From a virus, in the IMG/VR virus record IMGVR_UViG_3300031925_000001, positions 1 to 50,823 of that record: 50,823 nt of DNA; one strand, given 5' to 3'. Below, piece by piece: positions 3,788-47,920 of the stretch (within the stretch, counting starts at the first letter, position 1; every line of letters starts with the position of its first letter). A model generated the notes under the pieces. That model was not told the origin of the DNA, did not search any database, and was given only the letters and a program-made list of their open reading frames with translations. The translations under genes and the position numbers were made by a program.

Positions 3788-3796
3788 TTATCCTCC

Positions 3797-4638: not shown

Positions 4639-4639
4639 A

Positions 4640-6805: not shown

Positions 6806-6809
6806 TTAT

Positions 6810-7514: not shown

Positions 7515-7517
7515 ATT

Positions 7518-7823: not shown

Positions 7824-7837
7824 TATTATACTCTCCA

Positions 7838-7866
7838 AATAAAAATACCCTCCCCGAAGGAGAGGG
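7838..7866 (-). terminator. Intrinsic terminator after the capsid gene
   Basis: On the minus strand CCCTCTCC-TTC-GGGGAGGG forms an 8-bp GC-rich hairpin (one T-G pair) followed by ATTTTTATTT. It lies 15 bases after the capsid stop and before the small gene at 7823. It probably lets high-level capsid transcription be partly separated from downstream tail genes. The hairpin is read in the leftward direction; the opposite strand lacks a T tract. Confidence 0.85.
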
Positions 7867-7880
7867 CTTATCGTTAGTTA

Positions 7881-8924: not shown

Positions 8925-8939
8925 AATTAATTATTCCTC

Positions 8940-10010
8940 TTATAGAAACGCTGCAAAAGCGTCAACTGAATCTTTGATATTACCTGTTTTACGAAGACGT
9001 GCCATTGACTCTTGATATTTCTTTTGAGACTTATCTTGAGTCTTACCTGTAGCACTCTTTCCTGATTTGACTACTTTAGGAACTTTACGCTTCAATTTCT
9101 TCTCTACTACTTTAGTCTGAGAAGCTTTGTAGTCGTCATATTCCTTAGCCTTTTGGAGTAGCTTGATAACAATAGCATGTTTAAGAAGGTCTTTATCAGT
9201 ACCTTCAAAACCTAGCTTTTGTGTTTGTTCTTGTAGTCCCTGCACCAACTTGTCGTGCTCAGGTCCACGCCACCCCTCAACAATCTCTGCTGCTCGTTTC
9301 TCTTGAGCTGCTAGATAGTCTGCCTCTTTCAAGCCTTTCTCTGAGGTTGATTGCTCAATAGCTTGTTTACGGGCTTCCATCTTAGATTGTAGCGCTGTAC
9401 GTGCCTCATTCAATTCGTACTGAAGAATTAGGAATTGGTTTGGGTCTTCCTGTTTAAGTTTATTCCAGTCAACCTCATTATACTTATCCAATTCTTTAGA
9501 TTCTTCTTGAATGAGTTGGTCAAGAGCGGTTACATATTTAGTACGTTCAGCTTCTAGTTCAGCATAATGCTCTTGTAGACGCTTACGTTCTTCTGCAACT
9601 TCTTGAGTTTTACGTGTATAGTCTTGCTGACGTTGATAACCTTGAACCAGTTCATCACCAGTTACCTCAAGCTCCTCTCCATCAACTTTGACCAAGAAGA
9701 CTTCGCTATCGGTAGTTTCATCTTCAGATTCGTCGGCTTCCTCTTCATCGGATTCTTCTTCGGATTCTTCATCCTCGTCTTCCTCCTCAGAGACCTCTTC
9801 CTCCTCTGATTCGTCCTCTTCTAGCTCCTCTTCAATTTCAGCTTCCTCCTCTTCGGATTCCACTTCTTGTTCGACTTCTTCCTCTTCAATGCCTAGCATT
9901 TCGTTAGCCATCGACTGGAATACGTCGTGCTGAGATGCCGCTGACAAATCGAGTCCTTCATCAAGGTTGTTCGGTCCGTGCCCAATAACAGGCGTAGCGT
10001 TTGTACTCAT
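8940..10010 (-). CDS. Capsid scaffolding protein
   Basis: This 356-residue protein has an extremely acidic low-complexity region (about residues 38-100, mostly Glu, Asp and Ser). A long charged coiled coil follows (about 125-290), then a basic C-terminal tail rich in Lys. Acidic front, helical body and basic tail, with a location between portal and capsid genes, fit internal scaffolding proteins; the basic tail would bind the capsid protein. The gene is separated from the capsid gene by 15 bp. No protease motif is seen, so scaffold exit rather than cleavage is likelier. Confidence 0.82.
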   Translation of the reverse strand: MSTNATPVIGHGPNNLDEGLDLSAASQHDVFQSMANEMLGIEEEEVEQEVESEEEEAEIEEELEEDESEEEEVSEEEDEDEESEEESDEEEADESEDETTDSEVFLVKVDGEELEVTGDELVQGYQRQQDYTRKTQEVAEERKRLQEHYAELEAERTKYVTALDQLIQEESKELDKYNEVDWNKLKQEDPNQFLILQYELNEARTALQSKMEARKQAIEQSTSEKGLKEADYLAAQEKRAAEIVEGWRGPEHDKLVQGLQEQTQKLGFEGTDKDLLKHAIVIKLLQKAKEYDDYKASQTKVVEKKLKRKVPKVVKSGKSATGKTQDKSQKKYQESMARLRKTGNIKDSVDAFAAFL

Positions 10011-10015
10011 AAATC

Positions 10016-10240
10016 TTACTCTCCTTTATATTCGCTAAGTTTAATTTCCAGTTGGGTGATGATAGCATCAACCGCCTTAGCTTCTCGTTTGTATTGAAGG
10101 GAGACTTCATCAGCCTCCGCAACCATTGAGCGGATTAAAGCATCCGCCCTTAAATCATCCATTGCCTCTTGAAAGACCTTACTGTCCAGTATTGCCTGAA
10201 TCTGTTTGGCCTTTGTTTCGTCCTTTGTAGAGCTTTCCAT
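10016..10240 (-). CDS. Small hypothetical protein overlapping the portal gene end
   Basis: This gene encodes about 74 residues beginning MESSTKDETKAKQ and is predicted to be almost entirely alpha-helical with alternating charges. It overlaps the last 62 bases of the portal gene in another frame and ends five bases before the scaffold gene. The reading frame stays open far upstream inside the portal gene, but that part looks like a shadow because of its odd Lys/Arg/Ser composition. The ATG at 10240 is chosen for this reason, although its ribosome site is weak. Position suggests a head or tail assembly helper; no family is recognised. Confidence 0.6.
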   Translation of the reverse strand: MESSTKDETKAKQIQAILDSKVFQEAMDDLRADALIRSMVAEADEVSLQYKREAKAVDAIITQLEIKLSEYKGE

Positions 10241-12320
10241 CTCCGATTGAGACAGCTTTTTCTGTTTCCTTAGTAAGGACGACTTCAGCGATGTTAACTT
10301 GTTTAGCCCACTCAAACTTTTCTCGCTCCATGTCTTGAATGTCTTCTTGAAGTGCTTGCTCACGTTCTTGCAACGCAATTTCACGTTCTCGAAGCTCAAG
10401 TTCTTTAAGCTTAATTCGACTTTCCACATCATTCTTCTTCGCTTCCTGTTGTACCTTAAGCTGGTCAACTTGCGAATCAGACTGCTTCTTCATGGCGTCT
10501 GCATTAGCCTTAATTTCATCAGGTGTAGGTTTAGCTGCTTCCTCTGCACGAGCTTTCTTAGCTGCTAAAGCTTCTTCGGTAGTTGGGTCTAACCAGAACT
10601 CCTCTACATCTGTATAACCAGCGTTTTCAGTAATCTTAGTTAATAGATTGTAAATCTTCTGTTCGTTGGTTAAGATACCTAGACCGCCATTACCCACAAT
10701 GCTTTGAGTCAATTCAAACATACGCATCAAGTGCATAAGTTGCTGGTCTTTATCCTTAGTACCGTTACCTACAAGAACTTTCATATCCACTTGGTCACGC
10801 CAAGTAGCTGGGTCAATTGTTACGTACTTACCGTTAAGACGGAAGCTCATCTGCTCATCTTGGTGTTTCATTGCAAGTTGCTTAATAGCAATAAACAAAT
10901 CACGAACACCTGTCTCAGCAAAGATACGAGCTACTAATTTCAATCGTTTCTCAGCGGTAGACATGACTCTGTTAACTTGACCAGAGCCAGTATGAGAATT
11001 TAGAACCTTGTCATCAAGACCCTGTGTACGAGGAGAAACACCAGTACGATTTGTTTTAATCTCATCGTAGTAAGCAACCATATCATAAGTACCTTTCGGT
11101 AACTCAGGCTGTACCAGAGGTCGTAATGCACCCTGCATCTTCTCACGAACTACACCACCTAGCTTGTTGTTTTGCATATCAGCTAGGTTAACCTGACCCT
11201 CAACGGCAGCATAACGACCATTGTTAATCAAGTACATGTTGTCTAGTTGGTTACGAAGAAGTGCTGTCTTAACTTCTTGAACATCATGAACCATGTCATA
11301 AATAGATTGACCATAGAACTGATGTTGAATAGGGTTAGGAGTTAATGAAGAAAAAGGTACAAAGTCCCAGTCATCATCACTCAGAATCGTATTACCACAC
11401 ATGATGATTCGACGTAGCTCATTAAAGCCATCGCCATCCACATCCATACGAACATACGCTTCGATAATCCAATATTTATCATTCATTGGGTCATTGCCGT
11501 AATCGTCATAATCGTGTGTCTGAGCACCGTTATACATCTCACGGATTAGTCGTAGTTCAGAATCAGATGGGTCATCTTCATCGTAGTTGTTTAACTCTTC
11601 AATTTGTTCGGCTGTGTAACCCATTTCATATAGGTCAGCCTTAGTAACTTTACGTTGATGACCAACAAATGTAGCGTCTTTAACACACTTAGCATTTCGG
11701 TCAATCAAGAACTCTTCTGGCGGAACAGGTTCTACTTTAATGTAACGTTTAGTTTCTTCTACAGAAATCTTAATATCAAACGTACCATCTTCATTCTCGG
11801 CAATCTCTAATAGTTCAGCACCGTCTTTTGCAAGAACTGCTGTAACTCCGTCATTAGATAAGCCTGTGTAGTATTCTGCTGTTTGGTTAGTTTCTTCCGT
11901 CCAGTAATGCTTTACAATACCACGCTTAAACATTAGTGCATCTTTAAACCATTGATGCATAATCATGAAACCTTCATTTAGGTTAAAGAATGTGTAGTTA
12001 GCGTAGTTACTCATATGTTCTGCACCATCTACATGGGCAGGAGTACGAGCTTCATATTGCACAGCATTGTAATCTGTTGCAAAGATTTCCATCAGGTCTG
12101 GCATCATCCAGTCGATGGCATCTGAGACATCTCGTGAGATTACTTGAGAACGACCTTCAACTTCATTGCCCATCTTCTCGCCGTAGTAGTAGCGTTGAGC
12201 TTGTTTCCAGTTCTCTTGTAGTTTCTCGTCCTGATAATCACGAGCATCTCGAATATATTTACGAAGGTAATGAATCTGCTTATCCTTTTCCATTACCTTC
12301 AATTCTTCTTGTTTTGGCAT
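10179..12320 (-). CDS. Portal protein, P22-like
   Basis: This 713-residue protein fits the large P22-type portal family. It has an N-terminal helical segment with 'ENWKQAQRYYYGEKMGNEVEGRSQVISRDVSDAI', a 'WMMPDLMEIF' wing motif, a 'DPMNDKYWIIEAYVRMD' core strand pair, and a long charged C-terminal coiled coil (about 600-690) that probably forms the barrel. Twelve copies would form the ring for DNA entry and exit. The ATG at 12320 overlaps the last base of the terminase gene. The length is normal for P22-like portals. Confidence 0.9.
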   Translation of the reverse strand: MPKQEELKVMEKDKQIHYLRKYIRDARDYQDEKLQENWKQAQRYYYGEKMGNEVEGRSQVISRDVSDAIDWMMPDLMEIFATDYNAVQYEARTPAHVDGAEHMSNYANYTFFNLNEGFMIMHQWFKDALMFKRGIVKHYWTEETNQTAEYYTGLSNDGVTAVLAKDGAELLEIAENEDGTFDIKISVEETKRYIKVEPVPPEEFLIDRNAKCVKDATFVGHQRKVTKADLYEMGYTAEQIEELNNYDEDDPSDSELRLIREMYNGAQTHDYDDYGNDPMNDKYWIIEAYVRMDVDGDGFNELRRIIMCGNTILSDDDWDFVPFSSLTPNPIQHQFYGQSIYDMVHDVQEVKTALLRNQLDNMYLINNGRYAAVEGQVNLADMQNNKLGGVVREKMQGALRPLVQPELPKGTYDMVAYYDEIKTNRTGVSPRTQGLDDKVLNSHTGSGQVNRVMSTAEKRLKLVARIFAETGVRDLFIAIKQLAMKHQDEQMSFRLNGKYVTIDPATWRDQVDMKVLVGNGTKDKDQQLMHLMRMFELTQSIVGNGGLGILTNEQKIYNLLTKITENAGYTDVEEFWLDPTTEEALAAKKARAEEAAKPTPDEIKANADAMKKQSDSQVDQLKVQQEAKKNDVESRIKLKELELREREIALQEREQALQEDIQDMEREKFEWAKQVNIAEVVLTKETEKAVSIGDGKLYKGRNKGQTDSGNTGQ

Positions 12321-13750
12321 TAAACTATACCTCTGTTATCCTGTACAAAGTATTCTGTGTATGGGTCTCCACCAGAACCTACAACTGCGTATTTCTCTCG
12401 TGACATGATTGCGTAACGTGAAGCTGAGATTGCATCATCTTTAATAGGTACAATCTTACCATCTTGACGGTGATACTCACGGAACTCTTGAAGCCAGTTA
12501 CGACAGGTTGAGAACACTTTCAAGCGTCCTTGCTCCATCATCTGGTACATTTCCAAGATACCAACTTCGACACTATTACTACCTTTACCTGTTGATTTCT
12601 CACCCAAGGCAATAGGGTTCTTAAAGTGTTCTGCTGTCATGTTCACACCTTGATTTCGGTATTGTTGAGCTAGCTGGATACCTGAACCTTTATCATGTTG
12701 ATAGCCATCGTGTGGCCAAACAACTGGAATCCAACGAGGTCGAGAGTTAATTGCTGCTGCATGCACAACTGCTGTTTGTTTGTTCTGATAATGTTCATCG
12801 TAAATGTAAACAGTATCTGACTCTCTATCCCATGCTACCCAGATAGCAGCAGTAGGGTGGTCATAACCAAAGTCTAAGCCACAAATACGTGGATAATGGT
12901 CTGGTAAAACAAAAGGTTCTACCACAATTTGGTCTTCAGGGAATGGGAATACCTGACCAGAACCGAATACCGGAATACCTCTTGCACGCATCTCTCGTTC
13001 ATGTGGAGAGTAAACTGCAAGTAGCTGTTGCTTGGTGTGCTCATCAATGTGTGGAGCATCATCCCAAGAAGCTTGGATTAGGAACTGACCCGGTTTAAGT
13101 TCGTACATAAATGCACGTACCGTTTCTGTCATACCATTCTCTGGTGTAAATGTCATAGACACAACACCCTTTGTAGTAGCAGTACGTGTAATACACTGCG
13201 TAAAGATGTTATGTGGTGGTTCCTCATCTAGCCAAATAAAGTCTAGTGCTGAACCCATGAATTTGTGTTCGCCCATTTCATAGGACTTAAAGCCCAATCG
13301 AGAGACGCCACCCGACACATGTCTGATAGTGGCGCTCTGGAGAGCATTTGGGACACCCGGTAATCGTGTGGTGTCAATAATATCTTCAGCAGGAATTGCT
13401 CCTGTACCTAGTGCAGTAGGGTCATCTGGTTGTCCTAGCAACTCTAGCTGTAGAATGTCACGGGTTGTTACGTTTGATACGCCACATGCCCATGCATTAA
13501 TTGGTCTATCAAAGCGGTGTCCTTCCCAATCATCTGGATATTTACCAGTTAGGTGATATGCCATTTCAGCAGCACCTGTAAATGTCTTACCGATACGGTT
13601 AGCACACATCGCTAGTTTCTGTCTGTTCTCTTTGGAAGCGTACATAAACTTTTTCTGCCAATCATATGGTTCAAAGAACTTAAGTTTATTCTTTCGTTTC
13701 CAATCTTCCTCAGCAGCAATTAGTTTCTTCAAACGTTCTAAATCATCCAT
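12320..13750 (-). CDS. terL: Terminase large subunit
   Basis: This is the 476-residue packaging motor. The N-terminal ATPase shows Walker A CANRIGKT (residues 49-56) and Walker B FIWLDEE (171-177), with 'TFTPENGMTE' as the coupling region. The C-terminal RNase H-like nuclease begins with GLDFGYDHPT (291-300, metal ligand Asp293). GGGAG lies five bases before the ATG at 13750; an upstream in-frame TTG that would add four residues lies in that ribosome site and is less likely. The protein pumps DNA through the portal, encoded immediately downstream. No intein or truncation is visible. Confidence 0.95.
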   Translation of the reverse strand: MDDLERLKKLIAAEEDWKRKNKLKFFEPYDWQKKFMYASKENRQKLAMCANRIGKTFTGAAEMAYHLTGKYPDDWEGHRFDRPINAWACGVSNVTTRDILQLELLGQPDDPTALGTGAIPAEDIIDTTRLPGVPNALQSATIRHVSGGVSRLGFKSYEMGEHKFMGSALDFIWLDEEPPHNIFTQCITRTATTKGVVSMTFTPENGMTETVRAFMYELKPGQFLIQASWDDAPHIDEHTKQQLLAVYSPHEREMRARGIPVFGSGQVFPFPEDQIVVEPFVLPDHYPRICGLDFGYDHPTAAIWVAWDRESDTVYIYDEHYQNKQTAVVHAAAINSRPRWIPVVWPHDGYQHDKGSGIQLAQQYRNQGVNMTAEHFKNPIALGEKSTGKGSNSVEVGILEMYQMMEQGRLKVFSTCRNWLQEFREYHRQDGKIVPIKDDAISASRYAIMSREKYAVVGSGGDPYTEYFVQDNRGIV

Positions 13751-13769
13751 ATACTCTCCCAAGTTTTAA

Positions 13770-14132
13770 TTAAGCAAAAGTTTCCAATGAAATCTTGCTA
13801 TCCGAAGCAACCGATACTTTAAAGTTAACAGCAGGAGTTTCGGGAACTAAGATGATGTCGTCTGTGATTACCGGACTAGGGTTCCAAATAGCACCTCCCG
13901 GTTTTTCATTACCTGATTCTAAACCTTGTAGAACAAAGTAATTACCTAATGCACGCTGAGCAGCAATATCTTCTGGTAGGTATCCAATAAAAACAAGCAA
14001 ATCGCCAATATTATCGTTAGTTACCTGTAAGAATTTCCGGTTTGGTGAAGCCCAAACACGAGCATACTCACCATCAGCAATGTTACCACCTTTAGTGACA
14101 ACACCCTGTACTCTGTTTAAGTTAAAACCCAT
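13770..14132 (-). CDS. Hypothetical protein, possible head decoration or minor structural protein
   Basis: This 120-residue protein has no enzyme motif, Cys cluster or membrane segment. It is beta-rich and includes a motif-like 'RVWASPNRKFLQVTNDN' stretch and a 'TPAVNFKVSVASDSKISLETFA' end. Beta-sandwich-like composition and location just before the large terminase suggest a virion component, but no family is recognised. Its ATG overlaps the stop of a tiny upstream reading frame (TAATG). Confidence 0.65.
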   Translation of the reverse strand: MGFNLNRVQGVVTKGGNIADGEYARVWASPNRKFLQVTNDNIGDLLVFIGYLPEDIAAQRALGNYFVLQGLESGNEKPGGAIWNPSPVITDDIILVPETPAVNFKVSVASDSKISLETFA

Positions 14133-14239
14133 TATGTATCTGCTCCTTTATCCTGTTTCTGGTTCTGATGTGTCATAGGAGCTGACATCCAAAACGCCCG
14201 TTTCTTATTACGCTGTACGTAATTCTGATTATTTCCCAA
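14132..14239 (-). CDS. Possible 35-residue overlapping gene
   Basis: This TTG-initiated frame would encode about 35 residues, beginning with a polar Asn/Gln-rich stretch and containing KKRAFWMSAPM. It exactly fills the gap between two late genes, overlapping the end of the zinc-ribbon gene and the ATG of the 120-residue gene. No Shine-Dalgarno site is visible, so translation would need coupling to the gene before it. The placement is suggestive but composition alone cannot prove it. Confidence 0.3.
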   Translation of the reverse strand: MGNNQNYVQRNKKRAFWMSAPMTHQNQKQDKGADT

Positions 14240-14435
14240 TCGCTGGGGTCTTACTCGCTGTACCATTTGTTCTCCATGAACCCATGTTGTCAGTAGAGCC
14301 AATTGCCGGAGCGGATAATACTCGCTTCATCGGGAATGCACACTCGTCACATGGTCGTGTATGAACGTCATCTTCTACAATTTTGATTGTGGAGAATCCA
14401 CAGTTATCGCATAAGAAGTCTCTTGATTTTCTCAT
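14229..14435 (-). CDS. Small zinc-ribbon protein
   Basis: This 68-residue protein has two CxxC knuckles: CDNC (about residues 9-12) and CDEC (about 29-32), spaced like FmdB-type regulatory zinc ribbons. The C-terminal half is low-complexity and rich in Gly, Ser, Thr and Asn. The start overlaps the upstream lysozyme-like gene stop by four bases (ATGA-type overlap). Such ribbons could bind nucleic acid or host transcription or translation factors. No specific target can be stated. Confidence 0.75.
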   Translation of the reverse strand: MRKSRDFLCDNCGFSTIKIVEDDVHTRPCDECAFPMKRVLSAPAIGSTDNMGSWRTNGTASKTPAIGK

Positions 14436-15196
14436 AAAGGTAATCTCCCTGCCTCAGACGCTTCGTGTTTACCACCGTCAGGTCTGTAGCTTAATAATTC
14501 GCCACCCTTCATATCTCGGTAGATAATTGTTCCATCTTTTAGCTGTTCTACCTCAGAGATAGGGTTGTCTGGATTTGCTAAGTTATAAGATAATGCTCTT
14601 CGTTTAGCCAATCCCTTAACAGACTGTCCACCAACATTTGCTGTATCTAACAGTTGTTTGGATACTTCGTCATACTTGCCTTCCATAAGAGCTTTGTTTA
14701 GCTTAGGAAAGTAACTATTATTAAGTACCTGTTCACCCATGTTATATGATGCATCAATCAACATTGCCTGAAGTTCAGGTGGTGCTTCGTTGAAGCCCTT
14801 ACGCATACCCCACTGACGATTAAGCAGTGCTAGGTACTCCCGTGCTACCTCTTCATCAGGCATATCATCTGGTGCATTAACTGCTTGGCGAGCTACCGAA
14901 GTAACACCAAGATTACCAGTTGGAATATCTGTAACATTATCACCACTACCCTCTAATACGGCTAGATGGTTAAATACTACTTCTGTTGGGTCAAACTGTT
15001 GTGTTTCAGCAGCCTGTTCTACTTGTTCGATACCTCTCTGTTTCTGATTAGCTTTAGCATTTTCTAAAGGGTCAAACTCAGAAAGGCGTAATCTTACGTT
15101 GGGTAGGTTAACTTTTGGTAGGCTTACCTCTTGTAAAGTAACCTCTGGAATAAGAGCCTGACGGTTATAAATATCAGTAAGTAAGCCATCTGCCAT
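14432..15196 (-). CDS. Lysozyme-like (GH24-related) protein, possible endolysin or virion lysozyme
   Basis: This 254-residue protein has an N-terminal extension with Leu/Pro/Val repeats (about 15-37). A lysozyme-like segment follows: 'HLAVLEGSGDNVTDIPTGNLGVT' places Glu82 as the possible acid, Asp90 and Thr93/99 nearby. Later 'LQAMLIDASYNMG' (about 145-157) and 'GGQSVKGLAKRRALSYNLA' (near 193-212) match the helical second lobe of phage lysozymes, including the conserved Arg-Arg-Ala. The Glu-to-Thr spacing is shorter than in T4 lysozyme, so activity is uncertain. No signal peptide is seen. It lies next to the terminase gene rather than the holin, so a packaged wall-degrading enzyme is an alternative. 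Confidence 0.6.
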   Translation of the reverse strand: MADGLLTDIYNRQALIPEVTLQEVSLPKVNLPNVRLRLSEFDPLENAKANQKQRGIEQVEQAAETQQFDPTEVVFNHLAVLEGSGDNVTDIPTGNLGVTSVARQAVNAPDDMPDEEVAREYLALLNRQWGMRKGFNEAPPELQAMLIDASYNMGEQVLNNSYFPKLNKALMEGKYDEVSKQLLDTANVGGQSVKGLAKRRALSYNLANPDNPISEVEQLKDGTIIYRDMKGGELLSYRPDGGKHEASEAGRLPL

Positions 15197-15612
15197 TAGT
15201 TGTACCTCGCCATCAATTCTTGAATTTCTCTTTGTCGTTCCTCTGGTGTCATCTCATCAGCCTTAGTATCCTCAATAACCAGTGTATCTTTCTGAATACC
15301 TGAATTCTTAAGAATCATCTCAAGTGCTTTAAGACGTGTATTCCAAGGAACAGACTCATCTGTAGCTGCGGTAAGAAGTAGTTTCTGTGCTAACGCTGAA
15401 GTCTGCCCCATTCTACGCTTAACCACCGCCATCACATGGTCGTTGTTTTTGTCTAAATACTTTTTAGCGTTCTGAGCAGCAGTTTTCTCACTAAAACCAG
15501 CAGCAATGTAGGCTTGAATATGGTCACCACCGTTGTCTGCATAGGCTTCTGAGAACTTTTCTAAGCGTTCCTTCTCACCGATACCACGTTTAATTTCGGT
15601 TACGTTGCTCAT
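15196..15612 (-). CDS. terS: Terminase small subunit
   Basis: This 138-residue protein has an N-terminal helix-turn-helix-like DNA-binding region ('EKFSEAYADNGGDHIQAYIAAGFSEKTAAQNAKKYL', about residues 15-50), as in Terminase_2/small subunit proteins. A helical middle follows, then an acidic C-terminal tail with 'EMTPEERQREIQELMARY' that may contact the large subunit. It would recognise the packaging site. The frame stays open 42 bases further upstream, but GGAG 10 bases before the ATG at 15612 supports this start. The stop overlaps the lysozyme-like gene start. Confidence 0.8.
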   Translation of the reverse strand: MSNVTEIKRGIGEKERLEKFSEAYADNGGDHIQAYIAAGFSEKTAAQNAKKYLDKNNDHVMAVVKRRMGQTSALAQKLLLTAATDESVPWNTRLKALEMILKNSGIQKDTLVIEDTKADEMTPEERQREIQELMARYN

Positions 15613-15733
15613 TAATTGCTGTCTCCATGTCTTTAGCAGAGCCTTTAAGTTCACTTACTTCTTTTTCTAAAGTCTCTACTCGGTTTTCTAAGTAAAGTAC
15701 GTATTCTTGTACTAATTTGCTTTTATCGTACAT
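15590..15733 (-). CDS. Small coiled-coil protein
   Basis: This 47-residue protein, beginning MYDKSKLVQEYV, is a single amphipathic heptad helix (about residues 10-38: LYLENRVETLEKEVSELKG). AGGAG is well placed before ATG 15733. The frame is open upstream into the tRNA-Ser gene, so a longer N terminus is unlikely. It overlaps the start of the small terminase gene by 23 bases. Similar tiny coiled-coil proteins are common in phage late regions; function unknown. Confidence 0.7.
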   Translation of the reverse strand: MYDKSKLVQEYVLYLENRVETLEKEVSELKGSAKDMETAINEQRNRN

Positions 15734-20038: not shown

Positions 20039-20512
20039 ATGCGCAAATTCTTCTATATATTCATCGCAGTTTACATTATTTTGTCTATTTTCTTCACTTA
20101 CAAGGCTGTAGCCGCTGAAAATGATGAAGTAAAGGTAATGTTTGCAGGATTTTCACACCATATCGGTGCTCCTGAGTATGCTGACCATAACGAAAAGCAT
20201 AATTTGGTGGGTATTTCGTACAATGACACTGAGCTATTCTTTATGAAGAACTCATTTCATAATGATTCGGTAGGGATTGCGCATAATTTTACTTATTCTT
20301 ACAGCCAATATGTGGATTTTGGGTTCCGTGTTGGTGCTGCAAGTGGCTATGATATTCAAGGAATATACAATATAGGCGGTATCGCACCGTTTGTGCAGCC
20401 AAATGTGACAGTAAAGTATGGTAATTTAGGGATTGAATTGGGATATTTGCCTCAATTTAGTCATTCAACGCCGTATGGAGCGGCAACATTAACGTTTAAC
20501 TGGAGTTTATGA
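20039..20512 (+). CDS. Exported small outer-membrane beta-barrel-like protein
   Basis: This 157-residue protein starts with a charged end and a long hydrophobic helix (about residues 4-22) ending AVAAEN, a probable signal peptide. The mature part consists of short alternating strands with Gly and aromatic residues (e.g. VGISYNDTELFF, VDFGFRVGAASG, IAPFVQPNVTVKYG) and ends in a terminal aromatic/Leu pattern (LTFNWSL), as in 8-strand outer-membrane barrels such as PagP-like proteins. It is expressed early, so it may alter the host surface, for example superinfection exclusion. No catalytic residues were assigned. Confidence 0.65.
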   Translation: MRKFFYIFIAVYIILSIFFTYKAVAAENDEVKVMFAGFSHHIGAPEYADHNEKHNLVGISYNDTELFFMKNSFHNDSVGIAHNFTYSYSQYVDFGFRVGAASGYDIQGIYNIGGIAPFVQPNVTVKYGNLGIELGYLPQFSHSTPYGAATLTFNWSL

Positions 20513-20761: not shown

Positions 20762-22246
20762 ATGAAAATCGAAGACGTTATTATTGGTCAAAGATACCGT
20801 ATCGTTCGTAAAGGTCTAGTAAATACTGGTCGTATTGGTCGCTGTTCTGGCAAGAACGGCTTCAAAGTTAAGCTGTTAATGGAGCACAACAACACTGAGC
20901 TTACACTCAATGCCATGTCTATTGAGCCAGTTGAGCAAGGTAAGGCAGCTAAGGTTAAAGATGCGGCTAAACGCAAACCAGTTGAGAATGAACTGGTGAA
21001 ACCTAAGCAAAAACCGGCTAAAATCTTTGAAGAACGTCCAGTTCTCAAGCTTCCACCGGAAGATAGTTTGGTAATTGTTCGCGCTAAAGATGGCAGCTTA
21101 AACAAAGCTCGCCTACAAAACCTAGACTTTGTTGATGATAAAGTTTATATCCACGGTGATGATTTGACTGAACGTTATGTAGGTTTCATCCCTCATGACT
21201 CTAAGTTTAAAATCAAAAAGCCTGCCGACTTAATGGAGTATCCCTTTTGGAATGATGACGAAATGTTTGATGGCATGGAACTCACATTCGTTGGTGCCCG
21301 TACAGACTTTGGCTCACTAATCCTTACTGCTAAAGAAGGTTTTGATGTTCTTGCTAAGTGGGTGGACTTAACCGCAATCCAGAGAATGACAACCGCTAAG
21401 GTTGAAGTTGATGCTGATGGTAACAAAGTTGTTCCACCTATTCGTGAGCAAGCTCTGAAGCTTATGCACGACCATGCTAAACAGGCTAAAGGTTTGTCAT
21501 TCTCACTATTCTGGGAATACAACGGCAAGCTTGACTCTGGTAAGCATCGTATGGCTGCATGTCATTATTACATGAAGTGTTTTGTTGATGGTGAAAAACG
21601 TAAGCATGCTAAGGCTCTGTTTGCTGCTCAGTTTATCACTCAAAAACATTACGAAAACATGGACAAGCAGGTTGTTGACGATTACCTAACTTGGGTAATG
21701 AATGACTCTCCTTGGAGCCGTTACATTGAAACTAAAGACCTAGCGGAAGCTAAAGAGAAAGGTATTATTGTTCGTACCGACATTCCAGCTAACGCAATGA
21801 TGTGTACATTCTACGCTCTGCGTTACCCAACTGAATACACAGCAGTTGTTAAGGCTTGGGGTAAGTATGTTAAAGAGGGTTTAGACCCTGCAATTGCTTT
21901 CTTTAAGGCTGAAACTGGCGGTTATGGTCGTGATGTATCGTCTCACCACGGTCTATTGGACACATTCTCAATGGACTTGCAAGATGTAATTGACTTTATC
22001 AACCACAAAGAAGGTAAAATCAAGGACACAGTTTATGACGCTGGTTACTACAGCTACAAGAACGTGTCAGTGCATCACGGTTCAACAACACATCGTGACC
22101 ATAACAGAACAGGTATCCAAGAGCTTAACCACCGCTTTACGGTCAAGAAAATCAAGGAAAAACACCCTGTTCTTGGTGTAATCGAAAAAGAAATCCCTGC
22201 AATCGAACAGATTGACGAATTCCTAACAAACGCATTGGAGCGCTAA
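20762..22246 (+). CDS. Large orphan protein preceding the amidoligase module
   Basis: This 494-residue protein has an N-terminal small beta domain (1-55, 'RYRIVRKGLVNTGRIGR'), a Lys-rich linker (60-90), and a second beta domain (95-150). A larger alpha-rich domain follows, with 'LDSGKHRMAACHYYM' near residue 261, reminiscent of ParB/sulfiredoxin-like 'DGxHRxAA' loops. The final third has many His residues (SSHHGLLD, VHHGSTTHRDHNRTG; about 393-450). No membrane segment is visible. AGAGG precedes the ATG. It lies directly upstream of the amidotransferase gene, with one base between stop and start, suggesting a joint role. No family is recognised. Confidence 0.8.
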   Translation: MKIEDVIIGQRYRIVRKGLVNTGRIGRCSGKNGFKVKLLMEHNNTELTLNAMSIEPVEQGKAAKVKDAAKRKPVENELVKPKQKPAKIFEERPVLKLPPEDSLVIVRAKDGSLNKARLQNLDFVDDKVYIHGDDLTERYVGFIPHDSKFKIKKPADLMEYPFWNDDEMFDGMELTFVGARTDFGSLILTAKEGFDVLAKWVDLTAIQRMTTAKVEVDADGNKVVPPIREQALKLMHDHAKQAKGLSFSLFWEYNGKLDSGKHRMAACHYYMKCFVDGEKRKHAKALFAAQFITQKHYENMDKQVVDDYLTWVMNDSPWSRYIETKDLAEAKEKGIIVRTDIPANAMMCTFYALRYPTEYTAVVKAWGKYVKEGLDPAIAFFKAETGGYGRDVSSHHGLLDTFSMDLQDVIDFINHKEGKIKDTVYDAGYYSYKNVSVHHGSTTHRDHNRTGIQELNHRFTVKKIKEKHPVLGVIEKEIPAIEQIDEFLTNALER

Positions 22247-22247
22247 G

Positions 22248-22940
22248 ATGAACGTTGAAAATTTGCCTCAAATCCTTAAAGTAATGGTCGTTGGTTCTGG
22301 TATGAACCTCGACTACCATCGTATGCTTAACGATATGGGTCACAACACTGTGGCCTGTCGCTATGTTGAGCAAATTCGTCCAATCCTTTACAAAGGAGAT
22401 ATTGATGTTGTTTTATTTGTGGGTGGCGCTGACGTTAATCCTGAGCTATATGGTCATACACTACACCCAACGTCCGGCATTTCTAAAGCCGAAGATGAGC
22501 TCTGCCAACAAGCTTTCTGCCAAGCTCAAGAATTTGATAACATCAAGTTTGTGGGTATCTGTCGTGGTAGCCAGTTCCTTTGTGCTGCTAGCGGTGGGGT
22601 TTTGGTTCAGCATTGTGATAATCATGCTGTGTTTAATGGACATAGTGTTGAAACGAAGTGGGGTTTGGAATACAATGTCACTTCGACGCACCACCAAATG
22701 CAAGACCCACGAAGTGTAGAACATGAGCTGTTAGCTTGGACTAAGCGTACATCGTTTAAAGATTACCACATTGATGGTGAAACGGTGACAATTGATACCC
22801 AAGCTGATACTGATGAGCTGGATATTGAAGTTGTTTGGTATCCACATACTAAGGCGCTAGCTTTCCAGCCTCACCCTGAATTTGCAGGAGCTGGTGAGAC
22901 ACTAGCATTGTTTAAACGTTGCTGGAATGAGTACATGTAA
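22248..22940 (+). CDS. Class I glutamine amidotransferase-like / gamma-glutamyl hydrolase-like protein
   Basis: This 230-residue protein has a GATase I fold. It has a first strand-loop 'KVMVVGSGMN', the oxyanion turn 'FVGGADVNP' (57-65), nucleophile elbow GICRGSQ with Cys105, and QPHPEF giving His209 and Glu211. The C-H-E triad is intact. Such proteins hydrolyse glutamine or gamma-glutamyl bonds, either releasing ammonia to a partner ligase or trimming gamma-glutamyl amides (PuuD-like). The gene follows the orphan 494-residue protein by one base and opens the amidoligase module. The substrate is not visible from sequence. Confidence 0.85.
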   Translation: MNVENLPQILKVMVVGSGMNLDYHRMLNDMGHNTVACRYVEQIRPILYKGDIDVVLFVGGADVNPELYGHTLHPTSGISKAEDELCQQAFCQAQEFDNIKFVGICRGSQFLCAASGGVLVQHCDNHAVFNGHSVETKWGLEYNVTSTHHQMQDPRSVEHELLAWTKRTSFKDYHIDGETVTIDTQADTDELDIEVVWYPHTKALAFQPHPEFAGAGETLALFKRCWNEYM

Positions 22941-22946
22941 GGTTGT

Positions 22947-23156
22947 ATGATGAACGTACATATTGACAACAATGAAGTTGGGATAGTTTTTGAACGGCTG
23001 GATATAGGTGATGTGTTTGTCTGGAACGACAAAGCTTATGTAAAGGTCAGTCATTCATCACTTCAAAATGCTGTTTGTATAGGTGGTGGTAAACAGTCTA
23101 CTTTCTCAAGAAAAACTAAAGTTTTAGATGTAACTACAGTGCATGTAATAGTATAA
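22947..23156 (+). CDS. Small hypothetical protein
   Basis: This 69-residue, beta-rich protein (FERLDIGDVFVWNDKAYVKVS) resembles a small barrel and contains GGGKQSTFSRKTKV near its end. It sits seven bases after the amidotransferase gene and is the last gene before the 296-bp non-coding gap. There is no clear family. Confidence 0.65.
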   Translation: MMNVHIDNNEVGIVFERLDIGDVFVWNDKAYVKVSHSSLQNAVCIGGGKQSTFSRKTKVLDVTTVHVIV

Positions 23157-23452
23157 GGTAGGTAATTATGTAGCTGGATACAAGCTAGAAACGTAAATGA
23201 TTACTGGGGTGGATTCCATGTTTATTTGTAGATATTTAATTAATTACAGTTTTGTGTGTGATTTCTGAATTCTCCTTACCACCCCAGTGGTTATCCTTAT
23301 TAGTATTAAGTTGTAATAATAAGAATAACTTAGTTATTAGCGATAGCAAGGCTATCAATCTGTAAAACCATTCTCTTGTATGAGACATACTAACATAAAA
23401 AAGTGTCACTGTCAAGAGGTAAATCAATAAAAGTTAAGAAAAGGTACTAAAT
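23157..23452. other. Non-coding gap with nested inverted repeats
   Basis: No credible gene is seen. The gap contains ACTGGGGTGG (23203-23212) and its exact inverse CCACCCCAGT (23279-23288), separated by 66 bases. It also has two tandem perfect 6-bp hairpins, AATAAC-TTA-GTTATT (23324-23338) and GATAGC-AAG-GCTATC (23342-23356), and a minus-strand late-type promoter (23387-23415). It is the largest gap in the rightward arm and lies just before the class II amidotransferase gene. Confidence 0.6.
23387..23415 (-). promoter_or_regulatory. Antisense late-type promoter
   Basis: On the minus strand TTGACA (23415..23410) and TAGTAT (23392..23387) are spaced by 17 bp. A 26-base stretch ending at the -35 box matches the promoter at 16569-16607 at all but one base. 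It points left, opposite to the surrounding genes, so it would make antisense RNA to the upstream amidotransferase region or a short RNA. Confidence 0.55.
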
Positions 23453-24787
23453 ATGTGTGGAATCGTAGGCGTTGTAGGTCTTATTACGGCAACTGATGAA
23501 AAAGTATTCAAGCAGCTACTTGAAGTTGACTCATTACGTGGTCGTCATTCGACTGGCGTTATCAAAGTCTCTAGTGGAGGCGTTGTAGAGACTCGAAAGA
23601 AAGCAATTGATGGCATGGACTTCGTGAAACTTGAAGGCAAGTGGATTGATTCTGGTGTTAAGCGTGTTCTTATCGGTCATAACCGTTACGCAACCAAAGG
23701 TGCTATCAACGATGTAAATGCTCACCCGTTCACTCATGGTCACATTCATGGTGTACACAACGGGACATTATCAACTCAGTATGGTCTAAAAGACTACACT
23801 AAATTCCAAGTTGATTCTGATAACCTTTTCTATGACATGGCTCACAATGGTTTACGTGAGACAGCTAAGAAAATTTCAGGTGCTTGGACTGTTGCAATGT
23901 ACGATGAGCAAGAGAAAATGTTTAACTTGTTCCGTAACAACCAACGTCCAATGAGTGTTGCTCTGTCAAAAGACGGCACTAAAATGTACTTCGCTAGTGA
24001 AGATACTATGCTTGAGTGGGTTCTTGAGCGTAATGGTGTAGAATACCGTGACATTCTAAACCTAACTCCTGCTAAGTTAATCTCTCTTAACGCTCTAGAA
24101 GTCTCTCATGCTGATGGTAAGCGTATTCCTGACCTAATGGATATTAGTGACATCGAATACAAGAAAGTCGTTACCACAGGCCATACAGGCCCAAAAAAGC
24201 AGCTTTCAGACTTCGGGTTAGACATCAAAAAACGTTACCCAATTTCGGTAGTAGACCGCAAGAAAACAAACGCAGGTTGGGAGTACGAAGTTGAGCTTAT
24301 GGTTCCACCGTACAACTCTTGGACTGTATATGCATATCAGACTAATACGTCTAAGACTCTTGCGGAGCTTTACGAAAATGACAGCATCGGTTGTGCAATC
24401 CTAACCATCGGTTACTCATCTAATATGCCACATTGTTGGGGTATGGATGTGATGGAAGCTACTGACGAAGCTCTTAAAATTCTTGAAGAATCTGAAGCAG
24501 CGGAAGCAGACGGTAACACAACGCCCAGTCAAGAAGAACTTGATGCAATCTTTGAAGAATACGGTGTCACAGTTCTTCACCAAGATTGGTATGACGAAAA
24601 CGGTGCAAAAATGACGGAAGCTGATTTCCGTAAGACCCAAGCAGGTCAACATGGTTGCTGCATGTGTGGCGACCCGTTCACGGCTCCAGAAGAAGTTGTC
24701 TGGTCTGAACAAGGTGACACAGCTATGTGCCAAGACTGTGTAGACGCATTTGACGCCCTTTACGGCACTGATTCACAACAAGCTTAA
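23453..24787 (+). CDS. Class II (Ntn) glutamine amidotransferase with C-terminal zinc knuckles
   Basis: This 444-residue protein starts MCGIVGVVG, so removal of Met exposes the catalytic Cys2. RGRHSTG (29-35), GHNRYAT (75-81) and the HNG motif (Asn103-Gly104) complete the class II glutaminase site found in GlmS and asparagine synthetase. No sugar-isomerase or synthetase domain follows. The C-terminal part has a CCMC...CQDC zinc knuckle (Cys402, 405, 426, 429). It probably hydrolyses glutamine and channels ammonia to a partner, the amidoligases encoded directly downstream being the obvious candidates. Confidence 0.92.
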   Translation: MCGIVGVVGLITATDEKVFKQLLEVDSLRGRHSTGVIKVSSGGVVETRKKAIDGMDFVKLEGKWIDSGVKRVLIGHNRYATKGAINDVNAHPFTHGHIHGVHNGTLSTQYGLKDYTKFQVDSDNLFYDMAHNGLRETAKKISGAWTVAMYDEQEKMFNLFRNNQRPMSVALSKDGTKMYFASEDTMLEWVLERNGVEYRDILNLTPAKLISLNALEVSHADGKRIPDLMDISDIEYKKVVTTGHTGPKKQLSDFGLDIKKRYPISVVDRKKTNAGWEYEVELMVPPYNSWTVYAYQTNTSKTLAELYENDSIGCAILTIGYSSNMPHCWGMDVMEATDEALKILEESEAAEADGNTTPSQEELDAIFEEYGVTVLHQDWYDENGAKMTEADFRKTQAGQHGCCMCGDPFTAPEEVVWSEQGDTAMCQDCVDAFDALYGTDSQQA

Positions 24788-24809
24788 TTCAACATAGAGA
24801 GAAATAATC

Positions 24810-25655
24810 ATGACTACAGTATTCGGTAAAATCACACTAGGCTCTGACCCTGAAATCTTCCTAACCAAACAAGATGGCACTCCTTGGGGTGCCTTAACAA
24901 CTGGCTGCACTGGTACTAAAGAAGCTCCTGCTCCAACAGATTACGGTGCATTGCAAGTTGATGGTCTAGCCCTTGAATACAACACCAACCCAGTTGATAA
25001 CGTAGAAGATTGGGTTGACTTGCACAAAGCAGCCTTAGAGCATATCTCTGATGTAGCTGGTGGTGCTGACCTAATCATTGATTCAAGCTCTCGTCTTGAC
25101 TTCACAACCTATATTGATGGCAATGGTGCCACAGAAGATGAACTTATGTTCGGCTGTGACCCTGACTTCAATGCAGACACAATGGCAGAGAACACAATGC
25201 CAGATAATGACGGTTCTATTAAGTTCCGTACTACTGGCGGTCACGTTCACATTGGTCTTGAAAATTGGGGTGAGTTGTGTGGTGGTGATGAAAAGATTAC
25301 ACACATGATGGCCTCTAAGATTGTATTCATCTGTGATGCAATCCTAGGTCTACGCTCTGTCCTAACCGATGATGGCGTTGCTCGTAAAGAATTGTATGGC
25401 AAAGCAGGTGCTTACCGTGTCAAACCTTACGGTATCGAATATCGCACTCTATCTAATTTCTGGGTATTCGATGAGGTCGAGATGCGTTTCATCTTTGATG
25501 CTCTAAACAATATCTTTGCATCGGAAGCAGAGTTCAACCGTGTAGCAGAGTTCGCAGAAGTGAATCGTGCTGAGATTGTACAAGCAATCAACACAAACGA
25601 CAAAGACCTAGCTATTGCACTACTAGGCGGCGATGTACCAGAAACCCAAGAATAA
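24810..25655 (+). CDS. Phage COOH-NH2 ligase (amidoligase, phiEco32-like)
   Basis: This 281-residue protein belongs to the glutamine-synthetase-like COOH-NH2 ligase group described in phiEco32-type phages. Conserved blocks are GSDPEIFL (11-18), 'LQVDGLALEYN' (48-58), GGHVHIG (143-149) and 'YGIEYRTLSNFW' (207-218), which supply the Glu, His and Arg metal and ATP ligands of this fold. The family is predicted to join carboxylates to amines with ATP. It lies between the class II amidotransferase gene and a small gene that precedes the second amidoligase, all on one transcript. The exact substrates are unknown. Confidence 0.9.
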   Translation: MTTVFGKITLGSDPEIFLTKQDGTPWGALTTGCTGTKEAPAPTDYGALQVDGLALEYNTNPVDNVEDWVDLHKAALEHISDVAGGADLIIDSSSRLDFTTYIDGNGATEDELMFGCDPDFNADTMAENTMPDNDGSIKFRTTGGHVHIGLENWGELCGGDEKITHMMASKIVFICDAILGLRSVLTDDGVARKELYGKAGAYRVKPYGIEYRTLSNFWVFDEVEMRFIFDALNNIFASEAEFNRVAEFAEVNRAEIVQAINTNDKDLAIALLGGDVPETQE

Positions 25656-25666
25656 AGGAGCAGGAA

Positions 25667-26263
25667 ATGAAGAACTTCCATGATAACGCACACGCTAATA
25701 ACCGCTTATCACGATGTTATGTGTGCATTAAAGACAATGGTAAGTGGGTAACAAAACGAATCTCAGAAGCCACCAAACAGCGCATCTGGTGTAATGATGG
25801 CACTGAGTATGACTTACACAGTGATGATGTAAAGATTACTTTTGACAATCTTGGTTACGTTAACACACCACACCAATGTGTGTTGATGAGCCGTGCACCT
25901 AAACGTATGTGGAAAGCTGGCCTAGTGCCTGAGAACGTGAAGCTAGAAGTTCTTCATCCACAATACTTGACTCATGGTGATGCGATTGACGTTGAAGTAT
26001 GTCTTAATAAGATTATGAACAACGTCTATCCATCTTACCGCATGGCTTACCTACGAGTCAAAAACGGAAAGTGTGCAGCATCTGCTTTCCACCGTAACTT
26101 TGCTGTATCTCTTAGCGATTACACAGACCAGATTGTTCTTTACTACAAGAACTACGAAATCGGTTTTATCGAAGATGGTACAGACGCAATTATTGTAGGT
26201 GATGCTTATTCTCACCTACGTGAACAAATCTTTGAAGCAACAGGCATGGAGTGTATCTCATGA
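25667..26263 (+). CDS. Hypothetical protein within the amidoligase module
   Basis: This 198-residue soluble protein has several Cys residues, a mixed alpha-beta pattern, and a 'WVTKRISEATKQRIWCNDG' segment. No catalytic motif is recognised. It lies between two amidoligase genes with a good ribosome site (AAGGAG). Its stop overlaps the next start by four bases (ATGA), so it may be an accessory subunit or the modified substrate of the module. The role is inferred from context only. Confidence 0.75.
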   Translation: MKNFHDNAHANNRLSRCYVCIKDNGKWVTKRISEATKQRIWCNDGTEYDLHSDDVKITFDNLGYVNTPHQCVLMSRAPKRMWKAGLVPENVKLEVLHPQYLTHGDAIDVEVCLNKIMNNVYPSYRMAYLRVKNGKCAASAFHRNFAVSLSDYTDQIVLYYKNYEIGFIEDGTDAIIVGDAYSHLREQIFEATGMECIS

Positions 26264-27105
26264 GAAAGATTTACGAAATCTTCAAACTAAAACGTCCACA
26301 TGAGGACGATTCTTTCGGTGTAGAACTTGAGTTGGAGTACAACAACAACCCAACTGCATCAGCAGAATGGAAAATGGAGCACGATGGTTCATTACGTATG
26401 CAAGGTATTGAGTATGTAATGCGTGAGCCTATGGGTTTGGAGCGTTGTAAAGTGGCACTACAAAACCTGTCAAACAAGTTTAAAGCTCAGGGCAACCATC
26501 CTAAAGCTACTAACTTGGCTTCATCACATATCCACATCAACGTGTCTCATATGACAATGCCTGAGTTTATCCAGTTCGTAAGCTTAATCTTGCTGTTCGA
26601 ACCTCACATTGGTAAACATGGTGGTCAAGACCGTTGGATGAACTACTTTGCAGTAAGTTCACAAGAGAGTGGTATTCTTATCCGTGAGTTGTTACAAGTA
26701 CGAACTGAAGAACAATTGTTCCGATTCATTCGTCGTGTACAACAACGTGACTGGCGCTACAACGGGATTAACTTTGCATCAGTAGCAAAGTATGGCTCTC
26801 TTGAAATTCGCTACTTAGGGGCTATGCCAGAGCCTCTAGATGTTATTCCTTGGCTTGAGTTCTACGACACACTTCGTGATGCAGCTATGAATGACATCCA
26901 ATGGGGTGCAGTATTTGAAACAGTATCAGCAGGTGAAACACGAATCCTTACTGACACATTCAAATGTCCGTTCCCACTAAATGAAGAAGACCTTATCACT
27001 GGTGCTCGTATGTCCCAAGATTTGGTCTTTCCGGTGTACCATGATGTAAAAGGCGCACCTTACAAAGTAACAAACAACCTTCGCAACTACTTCTTAAATG
27101 TATAA
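26260..27105 (+). CDS. Second amidoligase (amidoligase_2-like)
   Basis: This 281-residue protein starts at ATG 26260, preceded by GGAG and overlapping the previous stop; the open frame extends nine bases upstream to a GTG. Conserved blocks are FGVELELEY (19-27), DGSL (42-45), SSHIHINV (88-95), RWMNYFA (125-131) and GSLEIR (169-174). These are the Glu, His and Arg signatures of amidoligases of the glutamine-synthetase/COOH-NH2 ligase superfamily. Two different amidoligases next to each other suggest sequential amide-bond formation. Substrates are unknown. Confidence 0.85.
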   Translation: MRKIYEIFKLKRPHEDDSFGVELELEYNNNPTASAEWKMEHDGSLRMQGIEYVMREPMGLERCKVALQNLSNKFKAQGNHPKATNLASSHIHINVSHMTMPEFIQFVSLILLFEPHIGKHGGQDRWMNYFAVSSQESGILIRELLQVRTEEQLFRFIRRVQQRDWRYNGINFASVAKYGSLEIRYLGAMPEPLDVIPWLEFYDTLRDAAMNDIQWGAVFETVSAGETRILTDTFKCPFPLNEEDLITGARMSQDLVFPVYHDVKGAPYKVTNNLRNYFLNV

Positions 27106-27117
27106 GGAAAATTAACA

Positions 27118-28236
27118 ATGGCTATTAAACTACACGCTTACAAAAACGGTTCTGAATCTGCTAAAGCTCTACGTGATGCACTTGGTATCAAAATGCTCCT
27201 ACCTGCTGGTAAGGGCAAGTGGAAAGGTAAAGCTGGTGATAAACTAATTAACTGGGGTTGCTCTACGCCACACCCAAACAAAGGTTTAGCTACCTATGTG
27301 AACACACCAGAAGCAGTTCGAAGCGCATCTAATAAGCTTATTACACAGCAACGATTTGATGCAACACCTGCAATGGCTCCGTACACACTGCCATATACTA
27401 CAGAGCGTATCACAGCTCACCAATGGATTGAGCGTGGTAACATAGTTGTATGTCGTCAGAAACTTACAGGTCATTCTGGTGAGGGCATTGTTCTTGCAGA
27501 GAAAGTAGAAGACCTTGTTGAAGCTCCTCTTTACACCTTGTACAAGAAGAAAAAAGACGAATACCGTGTTCATGTATTCGATGGCGAAATCATTGATGTT
27601 CAGCGTAAGGCTCGTAAACATGAAGTAGAAGATGACAAAGTTAACTGGAAGGTTCGTAACTTGGATGGCGGCTTCATCTTCGCTCGAAACAACGTTATTG
27701 CTCCTCTGCCAGTTCGCCAAGCTGCTATCGAAGCTGTTAAAGCTCTTGGTCTGGTGCATGGCGCTGTTGACATTGGTCACGGTCGTCATGGGACTTACGT
27801 TTACGAAGTTAATACCGCTTGCGGTCTCGCTGGCTCAACCTTGGTTACATATGCTAAGGCATTTGCTAAGTTCTTAGGTTTGCAGGAAGCAGACCTTAAA
27901 CTAACTAAGGAACAGTTAGACAATTACGTTCCTATGAACGAAGAAAACAAACAGGTACAACAGCCTGAATTGGAACCTGCCCCACAAGAAATTGATATTA
28001 TTGGTGCAGGTGTTGGTGTAGGCCGACCTATGGCTCAAGTTGAACAAGAAGTAGCAGCAGTTATTGCAGCAGAAGCGGAAGAAAAACCTTTCCCTGACCT
28101 ACAACATAATCTTGGTGAAAACTTGGGTGTTCAGAAAGTTGACCTAAAACAAGCTGATGCTTTTGTTAAGTTTGGTAATGTAGAAGTAAAAATTACACGT
28201 AAAAACTTTGCAAAAGTGCTACATGCACTGAAATAA
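27118..28236 (+). CDS. ATP-grasp ligase
   Basis: This 372-residue protein has an ATP-grasp core. Glycine-rich loop GHSGEGIV lies near residue 118, 'DEYRVHVFDGEIIDVQRKA' (147-165) gives the base- and phosphate-binding strands, and 'VDIG...YVYEVNTACG' (217-236) gives metal ligands Asp218, Glu230 and Asn232. An extra C-terminal region (about 265-372) is acidic and Gln-rich, then basic, as a partner-binding tail might be. ATP-grasp enzymes activate carboxylates as acyl-phosphates to make peptide-like bonds. It closes the module. Confidence 0.9.
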   Translation: MAIKLHAYKNGSESAKALRDALGIKMLLPAGKGKWKGKAGDKLINWGCSTPHPNKGLATYVNTPEAVRSASNKLITQQRFDATPAMAPYTLPYTTERITAHQWIERGNIVVCRQKLTGHSGEGIVLAEKVEDLVEAPLYTLYKKKKDEYRVHVFDGEIIDVQRKARKHEVEDDKVNWKVRNLDGGFIFARNNVIAPLPVRQAAIEAVKALGLVHGAVDIGHGRHGTYVYEVNTACGLAGSTLVTYAKAFAKFLGLQEADLKLTKEQLDNYVPMNEENKQVQQPELEPAPQEIDIIGAGVGVGRPMAQVEQEVAAVIAAEAEEKPFPDLQHNLGENLGVQKVDLKQADAFVKFGNVEVKITRKNFAKVLHALK

Positions 28237-47911: not shown

Positions 47912-47920
47912 TTACTCTCC

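Follow-up and report, generated by a model that had tools for sequence, protein, structure and literature searches.

A phage cassette of amide-bond enzymes with a predicted gamma-glutamyl amide or peptide pathway

What could a phage make with three amide-bond ligases, a glutaminase and a further amidase-like enzyme encoded in one run of genes? The question is raised by a 50,823-nucleotide stretch of DNA from a Vibrio virus (IMG/VR record IMGVR_UViG_3300031925_000001, hereafter the window, whose coordinates are used throughout), in which a first-pass annotation, made from the letters alone, had noticed a five-enzyme module at 22248-28236. The cassette encodes, in order, proteins that we designate X, C26, S69, GATII, LIG1, u, LIG2 and ATP-grasp. 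We predict, with about even confidence, that it specifies a phage-borne cytoplasmic gamma-glutamyl amide or peptide pathway. This reading draws in part on a rule found among related loci, which have either C26 or an enzyme of a different fold, the gamma-glutamylcyclotransferase GGCT, or both.

Distribution of the cassette and the C26-or-GGCT rule

The module is not peculiar to the window phage. It was described earlier in podoviruses (PMC5498523, PMC3890496), as a "peptidoglycan modification cassette" proposed without experiment in RIO-1, phiEco32, LUZ24, PA11, 7-11 and CW02. RIO-1, phiEco32, the LUZ24-like Clew-1, 7-11, CW02 and PA11 have the same LIG1, LIG2, GATII, ATP-grasp and u proteins as the window, and their cassettes likewise lie upstream of a primase/helicase gene, beside replication genes. 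The gene order differs: X-C26-GATII-LIG1-u-LIG2-ATP-grasp in the window, and LIG1-u-LIG2-GATII-ATP-grasp in the LUZ24 and phiEco32 types.

A tblastn census of 50,697 phage records yielded matches to LIG1 in 317, ATP-grasp in 309, GGCT in 137, LIG2 in 103, C26 in 55, u in 18 and X in 16, the smaller counts being partly due to faster evolution of these proteins at the sensitivity of tblastn. LIG1 was also present in at least 478 IMG/VR contigs. It had no match in 72,556 plasmids and, when a collection of 84,980 prokaryote species was searched, turned up in no more than 8 contigs, each from a metagenome-assembled genome; it thus looks essentially phage-borne. Related loci were retrieved with a LIG1 alignment as query (a single u or X sequence retrieved none), and 20 named phage loci, 80 viral contigs and 8 genome contigs were mapped using profiles of the seven main proteins and GGCT. 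The carriers included phages of Vibrio, Pseudomonas, enterics, Rhizobium, Alcaligenes and Cellulophaga as well as crAss-like phages; the Crassvirales phages cr108_1 and phi14:2 carried LIG1, GATII, ATP-grasp and a LIG2 that is unannotated there. In every locus the module genes were on one strand. LIG1, LIG2, GATII and ATP-grasp occurred together in each of the 77 loci whose context was adequate, with LIG1 flanked by more than 4.5 kb on its upstream and more than 3.5 kb on its downstream side. Chance assembly is excluded, since the same genes stand in the same order in many of more than 100 loci and the cassette is under purifying selection (ratio of nonsynonymous to synonymous substitution rates, dN/dS, 0.09-0.26 within the window's own group).

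The same 77 loci revealed the rule: 42 had C26 only, 20 had GGCT only, 15 had both and none had neither (Fisher p = 2e-9). It held after thinning by LIG1 identity, both for 37 representatives (p = 1e-5) and for 24 (at 45%, p = 6e-4). For example, RIO-1, phiEco32, 7-11 and Clew-1 rely on GGCT alone, CW02 encodes both enzymes, and the window has C26 without GGCT. C26 and GGCT have unrelated folds; what they have in common is that they cleave gamma-glutamyl bonds. Most economically, some step of the pathway would require a gamma-glutamyl bond to be cut, which either enzyme could do.

The assignment of C26 itself had to be revised. The first-pass annotation had called it a class I glutamine amidotransferase (GATase) with the triad C105-H209-E211. 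The residues are there and are kept among homologues (Cys in 80 of 82, His and Glu in 82 of 82 each), but the profile scores call for another class label: the protein passed the peptidase C26 profile PF07722 (54.3 bits, cut-off 20.5) and failed the class I GATase profile PF00117 (21.1 bits, cut-off 22.8), and 20 of 20 C26 homologues matched the peptidase C26 profile. Peptidase C26 is thus the better name for it. The nearest solved relatives in PDB were Lin1909, 7d4r (a "probable glutamine amidotransferase", which we take to be the polyamine-pathway enzyme SpuA) and PuuD (6vtv), and weak NCBIfam matches, far under the equivalog cut-offs, were to gamma-glutamyl-CDP-amidate hydrolase and PuuD. 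The nearest characterised relatives are gamma-glutamyl-amide hydrolases. Because the enzyme of class I fold is a C26 amidase of this kind and alternates with GGCT, the earlier count of two amidotransferases is doubtful; we favour C26 as a hydrolase, rather than as one more glutaminase, mainly because of the C26-or-GGCT rule.

From the gene content, gene order, conservation, active sites and family assignments that we observed, we infer the following scheme. LIG1 would couple an amine to a glutamate-type carboxylate after activating the latter, and another bond between a carboxylate and an amine would be formed by LIG2 with its partner u. One more amino acid, probably glutamate, would be attached by the RimK-like ATP-grasp enzyme, with GATII releasing ammonia from glutamine for use by one of the ligases. 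Cutting of a gamma-glutamyl bond would fall to C26 (elsewhere among the phages to GGCT, or to both), either removing a protecting or activating gamma-glutamyl group or recycling or editing the product. As product we consider a small peptide or amide that contains a gamma-glutamyl group most likely; it would be made in the cytosol, probably in the early-middle phase of infection, a timing proposed because the cassette is encoded with replication genes. The pairings accord with known chemistry: glutamine synthetase (GS)- and glutamate-cysteine ligase (GCS)-type enzymes, like ATP-grasp ligases, form amide bonds via acyl phosphates, and biochemical precedents pair PuuA (GS fold) with PuuD (C26), BtrJ (ATP-grasp) with BtrG (GGCT family), and GCS and glutathione synthetase with GGCT.

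Each precedent is matched in part. As in the Puu pathway, which has the gamma-glutamylputrescine synthetase PuuA and PuuD, a GS-fold ligase accompanies a C26-family gamma-glutamyl hydrolase; unlike that pathway, the cassette has no oxidase or dehydrogenase (PuuB/PuuC), its C26 scores far under the PuuD cut-off, and it has extra ligases and GATII. GGCT-bearing phages resemble the gamma-glutamyl protection of the butirosin pathway in combining an ATP-grasp ligase with a GGCT-family enzyme, as BtrJ and BtrG do, whereas no acyl carrier protein was recognised in the cassette and C26 stands in for GGCT in the window. The synthesis and turnover of glutathione likewise combine a GCS2-related ligase, an ATP-grasp ligase and a gamma-glutamyl-cleaving enzyme; however, the cassette has two GS/GCS-type ligases and a glutaminase, and nothing in it points to cysteine or glycine as substrates.

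Several points weigh against the proposed pathway. The window C26 reached only 19.9 bits against the PuuD equivalog NF008471 (cut-off 266), and enzymes of the C26 fold can act as glutaminases too, so that the family does not fix the substrate. The ATP-grasp enzyme fell under the RimK cut-offs (TIGR00768, 40.1 versus 143.4 bits; PF08443, 17.0 versus 21 bits), and LIG2, u and X have no characterised relative. In addition, the pattern could fit peptidoglycan precursors, whose D-Glu is gamma-linked.

Ligases, glutaminase and accessory proteins

The assignments of the other enzymes by the first-pass annotation were borne out. Its phiEco32-like COOH-NH2 ligase, LIG1, passed PF14395 (29.9 bits, cut-off 25). 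Among 21 LIG1 homologues, 19 matched PF14395 and two matched GCS2 (PF04107), the glutamate-cysteine ligase family, which supports the gamma-glutamyl pathway. Nine LIG1 residues (D13, E15, E56, H145, H147, R192, R203, E210 and R212) were invariant in 110 of 110 sequences. We also considered whether LIG1 and LIG2 are recognisable paralogues and rejected this, as profile comparison aligned the HxH patch only, with a probability of 3%. Profile searches of PDB gave no relative for LIG1, LIG2 or X.

The predicted ATP-grasp ligase was confirmed by its profile relations and by conserved nucleotide- and Mg-binding residues (K73, E148, K164, D218, E230 and N232, which like R150 are invariant in 106-107 of 107). 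It matched phrog_2599 and the RimK and R2K profiles; its PDB relatives were RimK and alpha-L-glutamate ligases, and profile matches extended to Ddl. On this evidence it is nearest to RimK-type enzymes that add glutamate, which also supports a gamma-glutamyl pathway. The same likeness to RimK and R2K suggests a different role, in which the cassette would tag a protein (of host translation or transcription, of the virion or of ejection) with an oligopeptide or amino acid, as RimK does on ribosomal protein S6, with X or u as acceptor or adaptor. X and u are core partners of non-enzymatic look, and the module-bearing phages known to us appear to be short-tailed throughout, which would allow a link to the virion. 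R2K ligases have been predicted to modify proteins (PMC4431377). However, we found no acceptor motif, the genes lie beside replication genes while the late genes are on the other strand, and small gamma-glutamyl compounds are the usual substrates of C26 and GGCT; we regard protein tagging as unlikely.

LIG2, annotated earlier as a second amidoligase, is Amidoligase_2-like: it matched phrog_7469 ("amidoligase", E 4e-96), and 18 of 20 aligned homologues matched PF12224 (Amidoligase_2) at E <= 0.01, the window protein itself being unmatched. Residues E25, E27, E54, H93, H95, E185 and R187 (ExE...E...HxH...ExR) were invariant wherever aligned. The likeliest start is ATG 26260, with GGAG 8 nucleotides upstream; GTG 26251 is less likely.

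The protein that the annotation had left unnamed between the two ligases is a real core part of the module: u was found in 70 of the 77 loci with adequate context. It was the upstream neighbour of LIG2 in 100 of 100 u-bearing loci, including three in which LIG1 stands downstream of LIG2, and in most loci the two genes overlap or stand within 10 bp. This constant position makes u probably the partner of LIG2. Its AlphaFold2 model was confident (mean predicted local distance difference test score, pLDDT, 94). Significant Foldseek matches were to viral models (BFVD), including members of its own family such as a CW02 protein; no PDB match had E < 0.001, and PDB profile relatives were weak, none of them significant. 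Residues 1-60 matched SH3/Tudor-like barrels with a best Z of 5.1, within the noise range. No conserved residues of catalytic look were found in u, the best conserved being G63, R80, G85 and G166, and neither u nor X belongs to a named family. In crAss-like and related phages, LIG2 carries an N-terminal extension of about 190 residues and u is missing (extended LIG2 at L015:10275-11735, L016:9738-11285, L045:11862-13343, L074:8522-10135 and L083:11817-13646, numbered by locus in our collection); hhalign and hmmsearch gave no support for a fusion of u into this extended LIG2.

GATII was confirmed as the class II GATase that had been recognised from Cys2 and N103-G104. It passed GATase_6 (PF13522, Ntn; 51.7 bits, cut-off 27), Cys2 directly follows Met1 (MCG start), and H102-N103-G104 and D121-S122 are near-invariant. 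Only the N-terminal ~200 residues matched, and no synthetase domain (SIS, ATP-PPase or PRTase) of the kind present in GlmS, AsnB or PurF was recognised; most members have a C-terminal CxxC...CxxC segment. The catalytic Cys has to come right after the start codon, and its position thus reveals where each gene truly begins. Apparent starts were ATG in 72 loci, ATT in 13 (L001:6212, L008:6326, L012:5675, L017:5108, L025:3825, L038:11555, L041:7890, L051:7175, L067:7841, L071:7679, L080:2105, L081:7518 and L100:6631) and ATC in one (L072). Most ATT starts are preceded by a strong Shine-Dalgarno sequence, and some were overlooked by gene callers, which left the annotated GATII without its catalytic Cys (e.g., in VPp1, Asterion and 275E43-1). 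Repeated AUU initiation in unrelated phages may be regulatory.

X, the most variable member of the cassette, was present in 66 of 109 loci, directly upstream of C26 in most of them. Its model was poor (mean pLDDT 58, confident only for about residues 300-380), and residues 1-60 gave weak Sm-like matches (Z up to 6.0). A role for X as a ParB/sulfiredoxin-type DNA-modification kinase, suggested by the motif GKHRMAAC, was rejected, as the motif is not kept even in VPp1 (SGTRNNAAC). S69 had weak PHROG matches only and no homologue in the 20 named phage loci.

Taken across about 110 loci, the active sites are near-invariant, and the visible catalytic residues, earlier judged intact in the window, are indeed so. 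Together with the dN/dS values, this conservation speaks for the use of every step. The multi-step module proposed earlier stands as far as two different ligases plus an ATP-grasp enzyme are concerned; its second glutaminase type is doubtful.

Layout and genome setting

All open reading frames (ORFs) named in the first-pass annotation were found in place on the + strand (Table 1), but the cassette begins one gene further upstream, with X. Genes are mostly separated by gaps of 1-22 bp or overlap slightly. The single larger gap, 296 bp at 23157-23452 ahead of GATII, holds no module gene. The matching gap of VPp1 contains an HNH endonuclease gene (L001:5760-6170) and the two share sequence there, so that this looks like a site of homing-gene gain or loss.

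Table 1. Genes of the cassette in the window
Gene	Position	Strand	Length (amino acids)	Description
X	20762..22246	+	494	First gene of the cassette; weak N-terminal Sm/SH3-like barrel, helical core
C26	22248..22940	+	230	Peptidase C26 / gamma-glutamyl-amide hydrolase-like; C105-H209-E211
S69	22947..23156	+	69	ORF between C26 and GATII; module membership unclear
GATII	23453..24787	+	444	N-terminal-nucleophile (class II) glutaminase domain; C-terminal CxxC...CxxC putative zinc ribbon
LIG1	24810..25655	+	281	phiEco32-like COOH-NH2 ligase, GCS2-related; predicted gamma-glutamyl:amine ligase
u	25667..26263	+	198	Core accessory protein; predicted LIG2 partner
LIG2	26251..27105	+	284	Amidoligase_2-like ligase; likely true start ATG 26260
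ATP-grasp	27118..28236	+	372	RimK / alpha-L-glutamate-ligase type

The window is akin in size and content to the Vibrio phages Ph19S9E2, VPp1, KIT05, IME271, BA6 and VP506, with 75-93% nucleotide identity in this region. Vibrio relatives retrieved by the window primase were also retrieved by LIG1 or module DNA (a few records being partial or chimeric), and there is thus no sign of cassette loss within the group. Going downstream from LIG1, a member of a primase/helicase-type family that the window shares is reached after about 5 kb in 90 of 109 loci, and a member of a DNA polymerase-type family after about 7 kb in 76 of 109; in two Crassvirales loci the ATP-grasp gene is near a different annotated primase. 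PADLOC gave no match.

The - strand carries the large ORFs at 189-15654 and 45140-50812. Other + strand genes encode MazG-like, ThyX, nucleotidyltransferase, exonuclease, ribonucleotide reductase and primase/helicase proteins. With ribonucleotide reductases, ThyX and MazG-like genes as neighbours and two glutamine/glutamyl amidases within, the cassette might be an auxiliary metabolic route that feeds nucleotide synthesis with salvaged glutamine, glutamate or ammonia and makes no special product. Such salvage would not need three conserved amide-bond ligases and two dedicated partners, nearly all catalytically intact everywhere, and we consider it the most improbable of the explanations discussed here.

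A signal-bearing 157-residue protein is encoded just upstream of the cassette (20039-20512); it matched a PHROG named for PagP, a lipid A acylation enzyme (E 4e-47), and had no Pfam match. This neighbour would suit a cassette that alters peptidoglycan precursors or another host surface polymer, for example against superinfection, and gamma-glutamyl ligases, C26 or GGCT could plausibly act on the gamma-D-glutamyl bond of peptidoglycan. Against this, no membrane, Mur-like or lipid-II-binding component was recognised in the module, hydropathy revealed no clear transmembrane segment or signal in its proteins, and the host surfaces concerned are very different, from Vibrio to Cellulophaga and crAss-like hosts. 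A cell-wall change against superinfection was the hypothesis put forward by others (PMC5498523, PMC10580990). On balance we find surface modification rather unlikely.

Proximity to replication genes also brings up modification of phage DNA with an amino acid or peptide as a shield from restriction. Cassette-bearing Gordonclarkvirinae of E. coli resist restriction and have no known modification pathway (PMC11990801). The first 45 kb of one of them, Bas91 (L109:1-45000), contain 9 EcoRI and 23 EcoRV sites despite this reported resistance; however, Bas91 encodes an annotated anti-restriction nuclease. The window has no GATC (0 of 144 expected), and for this reason DNA modification is disfavoured for its phage: palindromes are strongly depleted, as expected of cleavable DNA (ACTAGT, 0 of 20.5; GATATC, 0 of 9.9; CACGTG, 0 of 8.6). 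Nor was a partner that modifies deoxynucleoside monophosphates, phosphorylates hydroxymethyluracil or glycosylates DNA recognised among the genes scanned. We rate DNA modification as very unlikely. GATC is also absent from the VPp1 and Phriendly regions and is present in 1.262.O, PA11 and Bas91.

Place among phage cassettes

The cassette and its enzymes were known earlier, and the window is a further member. What we add by sequence comparison is the C26-or-GGCT rule, the pairing of u with LIG2, the near-invariant active sites, LIG2 in Crassvirales cassettes and the relabelling of C26; the first three were not found in the published accounts of the cassette that we consulted. A bolder interpretation, which we offer as possible and hold to be somewhat improbable, is that this is a phage-exclusive pathway, retained as a core trait by unrelated short-tailed lineages including crAss-like phages, whose dedicated product, a gamma-glutamyl peptide or amide, would serve infection in a way not yet described; LIG2 together with u would constitute a two-component ligase of a new kind, and either C26 or GGCT would do for deglutamylation.

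About 317 records of sequenced phages, together with at least 478 viral contigs from the environment, encode LIG1, and the cassette was complete in every case in which enough of the surrounding sequence was examined. The comparison suggests which kind of molecule to look for. If true, the gamma-glutamyl reading narrows the search for the product to a defined metabolomics question, feasible in E. coli K-12 with Gordonclarkvirinae phages.

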